36,983 bases of DNA from Parcubacteria group bacterium M6-OD1-1 (lineage in GTDB: Bacteria; Patescibacteriota; Minisyncoccia; GWC2-36-17; M10-OD1-4): NCBI GenBank assembly GCA_003056085.1, contig LSNK01000004.1, forward strand, positions 92,326-129,308, given 5' to 3'. The position numbers and the translations under genes are program-made. Below are positions 3,439 through 18,932 of this stretch, piece after piece; position 1 is the first letter of the stretch, and every line of letters starts with the position of its first letter. Below the pieces are notes generated by a model. The model worked only from the letters and a program-made list of their open reading frames with translations. It did no database searches and had not been told where the DNA came from.

Positions 3439-3452
3439 CGGCAAGTAAAAAC

Positions 3453-3479
3453 ATATTTGGAAGCAAGGCTTCCAAATAT
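3453..3479. repeat. REP-like palindrome, copy 1 (upstream of transposase)
   Basis: ATATTTGGAAGC-AAG-GCTTCCAAATAT, perfect 12-bp stem with 3-nt loop. Confidence 0.85.
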
Positions 3480-3491
3480 AAATATAAAAAA

Positions 3492-4166
3492 ATGTCTATA
3501 AGAAAAACACCTTTTATAATAGGTGAATTTTATCATATATATAATCGTGGTGTTGAAAAAAGAGAATTTTTTCTTGATTTAAATGATCAGAAAAGGTTTT
3601 TTCAAAGCATGCATGAATTTAATACATTAGAGCCGATAGGAAGTATTTATGAAAAACAATTCATTGATAAAAAATTTGGAAGCAAGGCTTCCAAATCTGA
3701 AAAATTAGTAAATTTTGTTGCTTACTGTCTCAATTCAAATCATTATCATTTTATTTTAGAGCAAACAGCTGATAAGGGGATTGAAAAATTTATGCAGAGA
3801 TTAGGTACAGGTTATGCAAAGTACTTTAATAAAAAATATAAAAGAAGCGGAGTTCTATTTCAAGGAAAATTTAAAGCTGTTCATGTTAGTTCAAATAATT
3901 ACCTTCTTCATTTAAGCGCTTATGTAAACTTAAATAATTTGGTTCACCAACTTGAAAGCAAGGCTTCCAAGTTGGTGAAAAGCAAGACAAGTTGGGAAGA
4001 GTATATAGAAGACAATTCTGTAGGTTTTTGTAAGAGAAGTATTATATTAGAACAATTCAAAAATAAAAGAGAATATAAGAAGTTTGCAGAAGAGTCTCTG
4101 CGAGGAATTCTAGAAAAAAGATACGAATTGGATGATTTTGAGGATTTCTTATTAGAGTTAGAATAA
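3492..4166 (+). CDS. REP-associated tyrosine transposase (RAYT, Y1/HUH family)
   Basis: 'GEFYHIYNRGVEKREFF', HUH motif 'NSNHYHFIL', 'FMQRLGTGYAKYFNKKYKRSGVLFQGKFKAVHV', Tyr helix 'NNYLLHLSAYVNLN'. Confidence 0.9.
   Translation: MSIRKTPFIIGEFYHIYNRGVEKREFFLDLNDQKRFFQSMHEFNTLEPIGSIYEKQFIDKKFGSKASKSEKLVNFVAYCLNSNHYHFILEQTADKGIEKFMQRLGTGYAKYFNKKYKRSGVLFQGKFKAVHVSSNNYLLHLSAYVNLNNLVHQLESKASKLVKSKTSWEEYIEDNSVGFCKRSIILEQFKNKREYKKFAEESLRGILEKRYELDDFEDFLLELE
3674..3696. repeat. REP-like palindrome, copy 2 (inside transposase CDS)
   Basis: ATTTGGAAGCAAGGCTTCCAAAT, identical core to copies 1 and 4; translated as 'KFGSKASKS'. Confidence 0.85.
3943..3979. repeat. REP-like palindrome, copy 3 (inside transposase CDS, extended stem)
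   Basis: TTCACCAACTTGAAAGC-AAG-GCTTCCAAGTTGGTGAA, 17-bp stem with one A/C mismatch; translated as 'VHQLESKASKLVK'. Confidence 0.8.
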
Positions 4167-14608: not shown

Positions 14609-14648
14609 AATCTGGCATTTGATGACGGACGTCATCAAATGCCAGATT
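14609..14648. repeat. Long perfect palindrome, family member A
   Basis: AATCTGGCATTTGATGAC-GGAC-GTCATCAAATGCCAGATT, 18-bp perfect stem, followed by T-rich sequence. Confidence 0.9.
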
Positions 14649-14676
14649 GTTTTATTTGGTAATAAGTTGGAAGGCA

Positions 14677-14714
14677 TTGCATGTATAGCTACATTTTGTT
14701 ATAATGTAGCTATA
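14677..14714 (+). promoter_or_regulatory. Promoter embedded in a palindromic operator for the HicA-like/antitoxin operon
   Basis: TATAGCTACATT-TTGTTAT-AATGTAGCTATA (14684-14714) overlapping extended -10 TGTTATAAT; -35-like TTGCAT at 14677 with 17-nt spacer. Confidence 0.7.
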
Positions 14715-14734
14715 ATTATTTAAAAATATAAAAC

Positions 14735-14974
14735 ATGACAAAAATAACAAAAAAGGTCGAAAAGTTTTTTAAAAGTCCAGCGTCTATAAAATATTTGGAT
14801 TTAGAAAGTATTTTAGTTTATTTTGGATTTAAAAAGATTAATGCGAAAGGAAGCCATGTTAAATTTAAGCATCCACAGCTACAAAATGATTTAATAATTC
14901 CAGTACATAAAAATGAGTGCAAAGATTTTTATAAAAAAGAATCAAAAAAACAAATCAAAAAAATAAAAATATAG
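14735..14974 (+). CDS. HicA-like mRNA interferase toxin
   Basis: 'LVYFGFKKINAKGSHVKFKHPQLQNDLIIPVHKNE' contains the HicA Gly-Ser-His signature and the dsRBD-like pattern. Confidence 0.75.
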   Translation: MTKITKKVEKFFKSPASIKYLDLESILVYFGFKKINAKGSHVKFKHPQLQNDLIIPVHKNECKDFYKKESKKQIKKIKI

Positions 14975-14989
14975 AATAAGGTAAAAAAT

Positions 14990-15313
14990 ATGAAAAATAT
15001 GAAAAAAGTAGTCGCAAGCATAACAATAAATAATAAAAAATATAATTATAGTCTTGAGGAAAAAAAACGAGGCTTGGTTTTTATTGAGTGCAAAAGCGCA
15101 AATATTGCGCAGGATTTTTTGACGGAAGACGTAGCTAATCTTCTTATGGATCTTCCAAATTTAATTATTGCTGAAAAGGAACACGCTAAAAAACAGTCTG
15201 AGGTAATAAGATTTAGAATTTCACCCACAGATAAAAGTAAGATAGAAAGAGAAGCAGTTAAGGAGGGGTACGATTCTCTTTCAGAATATATGCGTCACCG
15301 TGTTTTAAGTTAA
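14990..15313 (+). CDS. Probable cognate antitoxin (C-terminal ribbon-helix-helix-like)
   Basis: 15 nt after the HicA-like ORF; C-terminus 'EVIRFRISPTDKSKIEREAVKEGYDSLSEYMRHRVLS' resembles RHH DNA-binding domains. Confidence 0.65.
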   Translation: MKNMKKVVASITINNKKYNYSLEEKKRGLVFIECKSANIAQDFLTEDVANLLMDLPNLIIAEKEHAKKQSEVIRFRISPTDKSKIEREAVKEGYDSLSEYMRHRVLS

Positions 15314-15501
15314 TAGATGGTATTTTACCAATAATAACGCTTTGGACCACGGCGGAAGCGGAAGACGCGCATAGTGGCACAGTATTTTAAGGTTTTCTTA
15401 TTTATCAATGGAATATAGGAATCTTTAGTTGTGTTTTAAGAAAGATTGGTGTATAAATAATTGTAAGAAAAATCTTTGACGCACTATAAAAGGAGTATAA
15501 A

Positions 15502-15879
15502 ATGATTTATAAAGTTTTATTGAGAAAAGAAAAAACTTATTGGTGGGACGAGGATTCTTTTGGTAGTTGCATATTTAATGCGAAAAATGATGAACAAGCA
15601 AGAGCCTTTGTTGCAACAATTGTCCAACGAATGAATAGAAAGTATTGGAGAATTGGCGAACAACGAAATGTGTTTATCCAGTCAATTAGCCGCATTAAAG
15701 AAAGTGGGCTTGGTAATGTGTTGGAGCCGGTAAGTCTTTGGAATTGCATTGAGCCGTTAAAGGGATTTCGTAATATTAGGTTAGCTCTTGAAGCGTTCTA
15801 TCCAAAAAACAATGGCAAGCGTATATGGTCTATGATGCACATGTTTAGTAATTATGAGCCAATTCGTTTGAAGTCTTAA
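15502..15879 (+). CDS. Hypothetical protein (125 aa)
   Basis: Strong Shine-Dalgarno 'aaaggag' upstream of ATG; followed by a terminator. Confidence 0.65.
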   Translation: MIYKVLLRKEKTYWWDEDSFGSCIFNAKNDEQARAFVATIVQRMNRKYWRIGEQRNVFIQSISRIKESGLGNVLEPVSLWNCIEPLKGFRNIRLALEAFYPKNNGKRIWSMMHMFSNYEPIRLKS

Positions 15880-15901
15880 AAAAATATTGGAAGCCTTTAT
15901 A

Positions 15902-15930
15902 AAGGTCGTCATAATGGCGGCCTTCTTTTT
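15902..15930 (+). terminator. Intrinsic terminator
   Basis: AAGGTCGTC-ATAAT-GGCGGCCTT (9-bp stem with two G-U pairs) then TCTTTTT. Confidence 0.7.
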
Positions 15931-16062
15931 ATATATCAACTACAGAAGAAACAGCTTTTATATCCGTCGGATATTATAGAACCCTGTACATTTAATAATT
16001 TTTATGATAATTTTTTGTCTGTATTTAGTTGTTGGTATTTGAATAAAAACTGGAGGTGTACG

Positions 16063-16305
16063 ATGAAAATTCTTAATATTATAGGTTGTTGTATTAAAGC
16101 AATGATGATCGCGGTGGCGTGCTCACTCATGCTCGGATTAACAGTAGTTATATTTTACCGACATATTCCAACTTTTGGTATGGATCCGGTAGAAAGAGCA
16201 ATTGTTATTCAAAACGATGGTTTAAATGCAGGTTTAATGTATATAGGGCTCTTTCTTGTATCTTTAGTTTTTATTCTAGTAAGAGAATATATAAAATATA
16301 AATAA
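16063..16305 (+). CDS. Small membrane protein (~80 aa, two TM segments; start reassigned from the 16015 ORF)
   Basis: ATG at 16063 preceded by Shine-Dalgarno 'tggaggt'; hydrophobic segments 'MMIAVACSLMLGLTVVIFY' and 'LMYIGLFLVSLVFILV'. Confidence 0.6.
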   Translation: MKILNIIGCCIKAMMIAVACSLMLGLTVVIFYRHIPTFGMDPVERAIVIQNDGLNAGLMYIGLFLVSLVFILVREYIKYK

Positions 16306-16340
16306 TTTTTCTGAATAAATCAGAAAAAAGTAATTTAAAT

Positions 16341-16370
16341 AAATCGCCGTCTCAAATGACGGTGATTTTT
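16341..16370 (+). terminator. Intrinsic terminator
   Basis: AAATCGCCGTC-TCAAAT-GACGGTGATTT then T run. Confidence 0.7.
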
Positions 16371-16490
16371 CATATTTATAGGGAAGCTTTGATTGTTATG
16401 TTTTTTTATATATAATGTAAATGTGTAATATTTAATAAGTGCAAAAATTATTTTTACTTAAAAATTATCTAATACATTAGATAAAATATT

Positions 16491-17174
16491 ATGGGAATAA
16501 AATTCATACAAGTTAATTGTAAAGAAGAAATTAACACACCAAAATGGACCAGCCCGGATTATAGACAGGCTAAAGCTGTTTTAAAATACAAACCGGACAT
16601 TATTATCTTTGAAAAGGCTAATAATGGCAAAAATCCCAATACTATTTATAATAAATATAGTTACAAAAATAAACCTGTAAAATTAGTACGAAAACATCAG
16701 GAATGGTTAAAGGAAAAATCAAAAGAATATGGCGATGCGGCATCAGGTATCCCGATGTGGGATAATATAATAGAGTTATGGAGTGAAGGTCACAATGTTT
16801 TATTGTATAATGTAGATGGTTCTAATGAATTACGTCAGGAATTTTTTGAAGTTTGGAAATATATGTATCCTTGTGCTTTAAAAAATTGGCTTTGGTGGGT
16901 AAGAATATATTTAAGAGAAAAATATATGGCGAGAGATATTAAATGGATTCTTAAGAATAATAAAGGTAAAAAAAATCTTATTGTAGCCATCTTTCTTCAA
17001 AATTTTCATTGGGAGCATGTAGAATTTCTTTTAAAAAATCCTACCAAAAAACAGATTTGGGATTATTATTTTAAAAATTTTAAAGGCATAACGAAGGCTA
17101 ATATTACTGAAAAAATAAAGAAAGAAAATAAAGTTTTTTATAAGTATTGGAAAAATATTTCTGATTTCAATTAA
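16491..17174 (+). CDS. Hypothetical protein (227 aa)
   Basis: Complete ORF followed immediately by a terminator hairpin; no family recognised. Confidence 0.65.
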   Translation: MGIKFIQVNCKEEINTPKWTSPDYRQAKAVLKYKPDIIIFEKANNGKNPNTIYNKYSYKNKPVKLVRKHQEWLKEKSKEYGDAASGIPMWDNIIELWSEGHNVLLYNVDGSNELRQEFFEVWKYMYPCALKNWLWWVRIYLREKYMARDIKWILKNNKGKKNLIVAIFLQNFHWEHVEFLLKNPTKKQIWDYYFKNFKGITKANITEKIKKENKVFYKYWKNISDFN

Positions 17175-17175
17175 T

Positions 17176-17211
17176 AACAAAAAGACCATTTTATAAAACG
17201 GTCTTTTTGTT
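17176..17211 (+). terminator. Intrinsic terminator
   Basis: AACAAAAAGACC-ATTTTATAAAAC-GGTCTTTTTGTT, 12-bp stem. Confidence 0.75.
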
Positions 17212-17249
17212 GAGTCGGATGATTGTTATTTATATGATATAATTTTCAC

Positions 17250-17519
17250 ATGACAAACAATTCTCCCAACATCGTATATATACTAAAGTGCAGTGACAGT
17301 ACGCTTTATACTGGGTCTACTATCGATTTGGAAAAACGGGTTCAAGAGCACAACAAGTCAAAAAACGGAGCAAAATACACAAGAGCGCGCAGGCCCGTGG
17401 TGCTTGTGTATCAGGAGAAATGCAAAACATTGGCTGTTGCTCGAGCGCGCGAAGCAGAGATTAAAAATATGATTAGGAAAGAAAAGTTATTGCTTATAAA
17501 AAATTATCAGAAAATATAG
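17250..17519 (+). CDS. GIY-YIG domain protein (UPF0213/YhbQ-like endonuclease)
   Basis: 'NIVYILKCSDSTLYTGSTIDLEKRVQEHNKSKNGAKYTRARRPVVLVYQE', GIY-YIG variant 'VYI...LYTGST'. Confidence 0.88.
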   Translation: MTNNSPNIVYILKCSDSTLYTGSTIDLEKRVQEHNKSKNGAKYTRARRPVVLVYQEKCKTLAVARAREAEIKNMIRKEKLLLIKNYQKI

Positions 17520-17529
17520 CTTCACATAC

Positions 17530-17585
17530 AAAAACCAACCGTAGCATATGGTGACGACCGTCACCATATGCTACGGTTGGTTTTT
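17530..17585. repeat. Long perfect palindrome, family member B1
   Basis: 26-bp perfect stem, tetraloop GACC: AAAAACCAACCGTAGCATATGGTGAC-GACC-GTCACCATATGCTACGGTTGGTTTTT (first A paired at 17530). Confidence 0.92.
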
Positions 17586-17656
17586 ATTTTTTAAGGTGTT
17601 ATGATTTTTAAAGTTTGTGATATGTTGTAAAAATTTAAAATTTGCTAAATATGTGA

Positions 17657-17684
17657 ATGTAGTGTAAAACTGATGTAGTGTAAA
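17657..17684 (+). repeat. Direct repeat ATGTAGTGTAAA x2 in leader of 17704 ORF
   Basis: ATGTAGTGTAAA at 17657-17668 and 17673-17684 (16-nt period), immediately upstream of the SD 'cggagg'. Confidence 0.7.
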
Positions 17685-17703
17685 TCTCAACGGAGGACAG
17701 AAA

Positions 17704-18792
17704 ATGCAAACACTAAGAACTGAGGAAAAAATTTCTCAAGCTCTTGTTCCTTTAAATAAAAAACTTGCTTTAATTGAGGCAGGACAGAATATACTTTTAA
17801 AAGTAGGAAATACATATTCGCTTATGAAGTACGAAGGTCATAATGCAGAGATTGAAAAACATAATATTCATCGTTTTAGTCGTAATCTTAAAATAATGAC
17901 TTCCAATTGGCATTTTGCCGATACCAAAAAAAAGCAGCAAAAGCTTATTAAAAAACAACATCGCGAATGGAAGCGGTACAAGGGCAATATTTACGGCACA
18001 CACCGTTTAGATTTTACTTTTGACGAAGAGTTTGGAATTTTTCTTCCATCTTCTGATGGCCGTGATATGTTTCTTACGCTTGCAAGAGAAACTTTTGATG
18101 GTGATATTGTGCCAAGAAAGGATGTAATTGATATAATCAGTGATGATGATTTGATTGTAACAAAGTTGCGCGAGATTACTCGTCCACAATATTTCAGTAC
18201 AGTAGTTGCACCATTTTTGGAGAACAGGTGTACGGAATTTAAAATTCCTAAACGAAGTAAATTATTGATCTTTGAAGCCAATAAATTTACTTTATTAAAT
18301 CGTTTTGAAAGAGCGACACGCGACATTAAACACGGTGCGTTTGTGTATGTCGGGAGTAAAGAGGAAGTATATCTTCTTGGGCTTGCGCGAGGCAATAACG
18401 GCAGACCATACATGCAAGGAACATACTCAACAAGTACTAAGCCCATGTTTTATTTTTCTAATAATTATTTGGAATTTATATCCCGGCATGATGCGCAAAA
18501 GCCAAAATTTAAATGGGGCGGCGATTGTAATGTAGCTGTGTATCGGGCTTATGATATTCCAGGATTTCGCAGGCATCCGTTTATTTTTCCACAAATGGGA
18601 AGGAGGCAAAATTGCAAAAATACTATTTTTACAGGTAAACCACAGCTAATAACGGGTAATGTGAATGAGGCTATCGCGCATTTTACTACTACTGATTTTG
18701 CGGAGTTTGCAGATATTGTTAGCTTGTATGCAAAGCAAATTGACAGTATTCATCCTTCGTCTGATGAGCCAAATGGAGAGTTTTACTATTAA
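17704..18792 (+). CDS. Hypothetical protein (362 aa)
   Basis: Long ORF with strong SD 'cggagga'; bracketed by palindromes B1 and B2; no family recognised. Confidence 0.75.
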   Translation: MQTLRTEEKISQALVPLNKKLALIEAGQNILLKVGNTYSLMKYEGHNAEIEKHNIHRFSRNLKIMTSNWHFADTKKKQQKLIKKQHREWKRYKGNIYGTHRLDFTFDEEFGIFLPSSDGRDMFLTLARETFDGDIVPRKDVIDIISDDDLIVTKLREITRPQYFSTVVAPFLENRCTEFKIPKRSKLLIFEANKFTLLNRFERATRDIKHGAFVYVGSKEEVYLLGLARGNNGRPYMQGTYSTSTKPMFYFSNNYLEFISRHDAQKPKFKWGGDCNVAVYRAYDIPGFRRHPFIFPQMGRRQNCKNTIFTGKPQLITGNVNEAIAHFTTTDFAEFADIVSLYAKQIDSIHPSSDEPNGEFYY

Positions 18793-18817
18793 AGTGGTAA
18801 TTTTTTATATATTTTGG

Positions 18818-18847
18818 AAACGACAGCACAAAGTGCTGTCGTTTTTT
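18818..18847 (+). terminator. Intrinsic terminator of the 17704 ORF
   Basis: AAACGACAGCAC-AAA-GTGCTGTCGTTT then TTTC, 12-bp stem. Confidence 0.85.
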
Positions 18848-18880
18848 CTTTTATAGGGCGGTTTGCATAAAACTAAAAAC

Positions 18881-18932
18881 AAACCAACCGTAGCATATGG
18901 TGACGACCGTCACCATATGCTACGGTTGGTTT
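18881..18932. repeat. Long perfect palindrome, family member B2
   Basis: 24-bp perfect stem, tetraloop GACC; identical to B1 in the same orientation from AAACCAACCG through GGTTTTTATTT. Confidence 0.92.

Follow-up and report, generated by a model that had tools for sequence, protein, structure and literature searches.

What are the long, perfect palindromes that stand between genes of Parcubacteria group bacterium M6-OD1-1, and to what kind of genetic system do they belong? The question is raised by a 36,983-nt stretch of this genome (hereafter the window), which corresponds to positions 92326-129308 of contig C2 in a 766-kb assembly (G000) of 6 contigs that is 97% complete. An initial annotation, based on the letters of the window, had described three perfect hairpins there, and all three were recovered in our analysis. 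Our results suggest that these palindromes are probably the terminal repeats of mobile elements of Patescibacteria that carry one winged-helix/Cas2-like gene, the window copies being solo ends. The three palindromes and the unit conserved in two of them are as follows.

14609-14648, no strand: palindrome A (solo), 19 bp around a 2-nt center or 18 bp around GGAC; center GACGGACGTC
17530-17585, no strand: palindrome B1, 27 bp around AC or 26 bp around GACC
18881-18932, no strand: palindrome B2, 25 bp around AC; identical to B1 over 52 nt
17541-17574 (in B1) and 18890-18923 (in B2): conserved type-B unit GTAGCATATGGTGACGACCGTCACCATATGCTAC

The inner bases of palindrome A are as in B at 10 of 12 positions, and the compensation of both differences in the opposite arm, which the annotation had pointed out, is real; judging by this sequence, A is probably a diverged type-B copy, whereas the outer stem AAAAACCAACC/GGTTGGTTTTT of B1 was found only in B1 and B2. 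A check set beforehand, the occurrence of the core elsewhere in the genome, returned 10 sites for GCATNTGNTGACNNNNGTCANCANATGC and 0 for the reversed control. The annotation had placed all three hairpins in an accessory segment, but the family is not confined there, since copies occur on contigs C1, C2, C4, C5, and C6, many adjoining housekeeping genes. No Rfam match was obtained at the hairpins, and no gene matching the Pfam family PaaX_M lies between or beside A, B1, and B2.

The feature shared across the genome is the center of the palindromes. The 10-mer GACGNNCGTC occurs at 18 sites, all of which center a long inverted repeat (perfect arms of 15-29 bp in 15/18, near-perfect in 3/18) and are intergenic as far as open reading frames (ORFs) show, and the 8-mer ACGACCGT is a palindrome center at 22 of its 23 genome sites, C5:82192 being counted among the 22 with a one-base slip. 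The arms fall into families: type B (GTAGCATATGGTGACGACCGTCACCATATGCTAC) is present in 9 copies, with palindrome A as the probable tenth, and type C (ATGACAACTTTGGGGACGACCGTCCCCAAAGTTGTCAT) in 7 copies, type D and further families being rarer. B and C arms were not found in any of the 92 relatives searched, and the identical center with other arms makes long hairpins in G004, of the same order, and in G119, of the same class. The fixed part is the center, which reads ACGACCGT here and resembles CGATCG in most cases in relatives, with arms that differ by family. The earlier idea of selection for a structure plus a core motif therefore pointed in the right direction, but its fixed inner stem and variable outer stem give way to a fixed center and arms that vary between families. 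Matches to the core 10-mer in G046, G214, G268, and G280 were rejected as chance, with stems of just 4-5 bp. As a separate observation, a perfect palindrome with a CGGTCG center, ATTACTACTTATTGCGCGGTCGCGCAATAAGTAGTAAT, lacks GACG/CGTC (G000 contig C6 near 191022; L038 7004-7042) and is probably a further family of the same kind. Viral contigs yielded no B or C patterns and one A3 relative, and plasmids gave a single weak PaaX match; with this near-absence, the elements look chromosomal.

The palindromes acquire a partner in the paired copies. Palindrome pairs ~660-740 bp apart enclose a gene of ~200 amino acids at C6:204179-204796 of this genome and at three loci in G004. This genome has three PaaX_M genes, each flanked left and right by ACGACCGT palindromes; at the C1 gene, one flank is imperfect. 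The unit thus reads palindrome, PaaX_M gene, palindrome, over roughly 0.65-0.85 kb (median of located units ~0.7 kb). The family (PF20803) is present in 56 of 93 relatives, at 0-13 copies per genome, and absent from G001 of the same genus. Left and right flanks share a repeat at 86% of 70 full-flank loci, as compared with 16% of shuffled pairs and 17% of control genes. The same was seen in an independent set, in which 94% of 68 GTDB loci (11% when shuffled) have matching left and right repeats; these loci were drawn from 80 relatives kept among at least 560, and nearly all of the 80 are titled as Patescibacteria or Parcubacteria groups. Most flanking repeats are palindromes with a self-complementary center, CGATCG being the commonest, followed by CTATAG, CGACCG/CGGTCG, CGGCCG, and CTCGAG. 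The arms are the same at both ends of one element and different between elements, even in G004, where two proteins are 69% identical yet their arms differ. Homologous elements within one genome have the unit in common but not the flanks.

The element gene encodes a protein of about 180-210 amino acids with a winged helix and a Cas2-like domain, related to Cas2 and the regulator PaaX and to no known transposase. PF20803 ("PaaX protein central Cas2-like domain") is matched at 40-54 bits against a curated cut-off of 24, whereas the PaaX equivalog TIGR02277 is not reached (14.8-18.4 bits; cut-off 264.55), scores for Cas2 TIGR01573 are mostly below threshold (17.7-22.7 bits; cut-off 24.5), and Pfam CRISPR_Cas2 is passed barely by one of four proteins (24.3 versus 23.8). 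In the predicted structure (mean predicted local distance difference test score, pLDDT, of 83.9), helices and a winged helix make up the N-terminal part, and a ferredoxin-like domain comes after it; the best neighbors in the PDB are E. coli PaaX (8a39), several Cas2 structures, and regulators with a winged helix, all at modest E-values that never fall below 0.001. Asp138, in an FDIPE motif, and Ser165 are invariant in 143 of 143 proteins. The same 143 sequences have no His column at 50% and no invariant Tyr, so the protein is not a Y1 HUH enzyme.

Presence or absence at orthologous sites, the mark of a transposable element, was observed at two loci in one genus. In G011, an element lies between ftsA and ftsZ, where the gap in the alignment is 1143 nt versus 9, 35, and about 0 nt in three sister species of the same genus. 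A second G011 element, between ligA and the downstream gene, is absent from the sister species; in G126, which has about 84% DNA identity to G011, the ligA-side flank runs into a terminator beyond the element site. The G011 ftsA-ftsZ gap also holds a small ORF beside the element that is absent from the sister species (L309 3763-4100), implying that this gap took more than one insertion or a larger unit. The palindrome of the ftsA-ftsZ element recurs as five solo copies at other places in G011, where the stretch read contains no PaaX_M gene; one of these sites, adjoining a dnaE-like gene, is common to G126. Solo copies with arms matching elements are also found in G000 and G004. The outer flanks of solo copies are complementary above shuffled pairs (p about 0.001), although selection for terminators could give the same result. 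One such copy in G011 (contig C41; L361 5514-5561) sits within a 14-bp terminator-like stem, ATGAAGGCATTTTA/TAAAATGCCTTCAT; hairpin loops may be insertion targets, and the site hints at insertion into, or upkeep within, terminators. Insertion of full elements in pre-existing inverted repeats was considered and found unsupported (p 0.35). For a G000 solo palindrome, the orthologous gaps of G001 and G002 lack the palindrome but are too diverged to give the junction of a clean empty site.

The probable identification of the palindromes as ends of mobile elements builds on what is observed, namely, the paired layout, the multicopy and lineage-specific distribution, the presence or absence at two orthologous sites, and the solo copies. 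We infer, in addition, that the Cas2-like protein itself mobilizes DNA and acts at the palindrome center and that a protein of this kind is required by the B palindromes. Under this scheme, a symmetric dimer would read the two arms through its winged helices and bring both ends into proximity, and the Cas2-like domain, with its invariant Asp, would act at the self-complementary center (of the CGATCG or CGACCG type), perhaps once replication or transcription has exposed it as a hairpin or cruciform. Solo palindromes would be end-only copies that either lost the gene, like solo long terminal repeats, or were mobilized in trans, like REPINs. Whether these are a new class of mobile element in prokaryotes, with palindrome-bounded DNA that is moved by a winged-helix/Cas2-like protein and that brings along no Cas1 and no HUH, DDE, serine, or tyrosine recombinase, we regard as evenly balanced. 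Several points weigh against mobility by this protein. Direct repeats at the element ends are no longer than in shuffled pairs and so give no sign of target-site duplication, although not every element type produces one. Neighboring sequence is partly different at both G011 loci, so that the junctions are not base-exact, and all of the data are assembled metagenomes. No PaaX_M gene with type-B arms was found in the 97%-complete assembly, such genes sharing only the center with B; type B may therefore be mobilized in trans, orphaned, or served by a gene outside the assembly. Finally, because PaaX is a transcription factor, binding without cutting is possible.

This last point leads to the main rival, according to which the gene encodes a PaaX-like transcription factor, the flanking palindromes are autoregulatory, and the solo ones are operators of its target genes. 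PaaX, the best structural match, belongs to a known repressor family, the start codon often has a palindrome in the ~100 nt preceding it, and symmetric sites fit a dimeric regulator. A matching palindrome, however, also follows directly past the stop codon, solo copies are often behind genes and even between convergent genes, and sister species differ in having or lacking whole units. Moreover, as many as 13 divergent genes can occur in a genome, every one of them with separate arms, and perfect arms reach 29 bp, longer than a usual operator. A pure regulon is therefore unlikely, although autoregulation may be part of the life of the element. A selfish, homing-like spread, in which a Cas2-like nuclease cuts palindromes or palindrome-free sites and host repair copies the unit with no true transposition, would be consistent with the invariant Cas2-type Asp, the lack of target duplication, and solo palindromes as possible targets or relics, but elements sit at unrelated sites with no flanks in common, and we know of no homing nuclease with this fold, making this explanation improbable.

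The initial annotation had also proposed an unusually strong bidirectional terminator, and ordinary bidirectional terminators with a favored loop would account for the many copies behind genes and for the A tracts that precede and the T tracts that follow the stem at B1, B2, C6:23124, and C2:74038. Intrinsic-terminator features (GC-rich stem, T tract, position behind a gene) or terminator-like stems are indeed found at B1, B2, and some solo copies but not at others: the T tract is missing at several (C2:10414, C6:123885), and C6:23124 lies between divergent genes. Nor would terminators explain near-identical arm families with none in relatives, or one protein family bracketed on both sides by palindromes. 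The paired association with PaaX_M genes largely refutes this view, which we hold to be very improbable; a dual role is possible, and termination may be a secondary role of the palindromes. As for the attC-like site suggested at the same time, nothing ties the palindromes to integrons. Two further features of the window are the following.

3492-4166: Y1_Tnp gene, resembling the tyrosine transposases (RAYTs) associated with repetitive extragenic palindromic (REP) sequences; hairpin TTTGGAAGCCTTGCTTCCAAA just upstream, related hairpin within the 3' part of the gene
17704-18792, plus strand: ORF of 362 amino acids between the direct repeats B1 and B2; family unassigned, not PaaX_M

That the palindromes are REPs of this Y1 (RAYT-like) transposase is disfavored and hardly credible: the gene is in the window and the type-B unit starts, by chance, with GTAG, but that gene is closely preceded by a different hairpin of its own, TTTGGAAGC...GCTTCCAAA (3452-3480), with a relative at 3943-3979, the palindromes go with PaaX_M genes, and the GTAG foot is missing in types A, C, and D.

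It is also observed that the GGAAGCCTTGCTTCC hairpin of the Y1 gene adjoins type-B palindromes on contig C4. There, at C4:1-1500 (L013), an AAA/DUF4143 gene stands between two type-B palindromes, and on both sides the repeat reaches ~50 nt past the palindrome; because the contig begins within the repeat, this arrangement may stem from tandem duplication or from the edge of the assembly. This gene and the 362-amino acid ORF between B1 and B2 could be passengers between two ends or chance neighbors. Directly after palindrome A, at 14735-15313, a HicA-like toxin gene is followed by one for a NikA-like ribbon-helix-helix protein, likely a toxin-antitoxin pair. At the extreme end of contig C2 (34688-36637), a gene with Ig/cadherin-like repeats has a GC content of 0.40, above the rest, and was possibly acquired or reflects a contig-end misassembly.

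In the open-access literature searched, we found no published account of these elements and no paper that has PaaX alongside either Cas2 or Parcubacteria; the search did not extend to preprints or to most of the subscription literature, so novelty is provisional. The family is widespread in Patescibacteria, which are ultra-small bacteria, and is apparently undescribed. If our interpretation is correct, hundreds of solitary Patescibacteria genes matching PaaX/Cas2 models would constitute a large overlooked mobile-element family, and an unexpected protein class would join those involved in DNA mobility, providing a testable link of Cas2-like proteins to DNA integration, with the Cas2 fold active in DNA mobility independently of Cas1. 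It would also explain one origin of the repeats and insertions that very reduced genomes carry, even in the ftsA-ftsZ gap.

Known systems share parts of this organization. Casposons are Cas1 transposons, kilobases long and with several genes; the present elements resemble them in linking a CRISPR-adaptation type of fold to mobile DNA but have one Cas2-like gene, no Cas1, and units of about 0.7 kb. The protein shares the ferredoxin-like domain, the FDI-motif Asp, and the QxSVF/W segment with Cas2/VapD nucleases but has a fused winged helix, and the loci read gave no hint of a CRISPR context (no genome-wide search was made for one). Like E. coli PaaX (8a39), it has a winged helix followed by the PaaX_M Cas2-like domain, whereas at ~200 rather than 305 amino acids it is far under the equivalog cut-off, multicopy, and palindrome-bracketed. 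IS200/IS605 elements, to which the PATEs ("palindrome-associated transposable" elements) of Haloquadratum belong, are likewise very small and single-gene, carry a hairpin at each end, and show no clear target duplication, but they rely on a Y1 HUH transposase and subterminal hairpins, whereas neither the HUH motif nor an invariant Tyr is present here. The closest parallel is with REP/REPIN sequences and their RAYTs (REPtrons), which also combine short, dispersed extragenic palindromes in species-specific families, mostly behind genes, with a single gene bracketed by palindrome copies. RAYTs are HUH Y1 enzymes, and one end of a REP bears an unpaired tag, GTAG or CGTC (PMC8266576, PMC3733652). 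By contrast, the Pfam match here is PaaX_M and not Y1_Tnp, and the palindromes have no unpaired tag: GTAG occurs only in type B, inside the stem and mirrored by CTAC, and is missing in A, C, D, and other genomes. Arms are frequently perfect here, and it is the center that is conserved. The earlier suggestion of a REP-like dispersed hairpin thus holds in outline and changes in detail, with the palindromes being ends of elements with a PaaX/Cas2-like gene. On these comparisons, the best reading would be a REP/RAYT-like system built around an unrelated, possibly new mobilizing protein.

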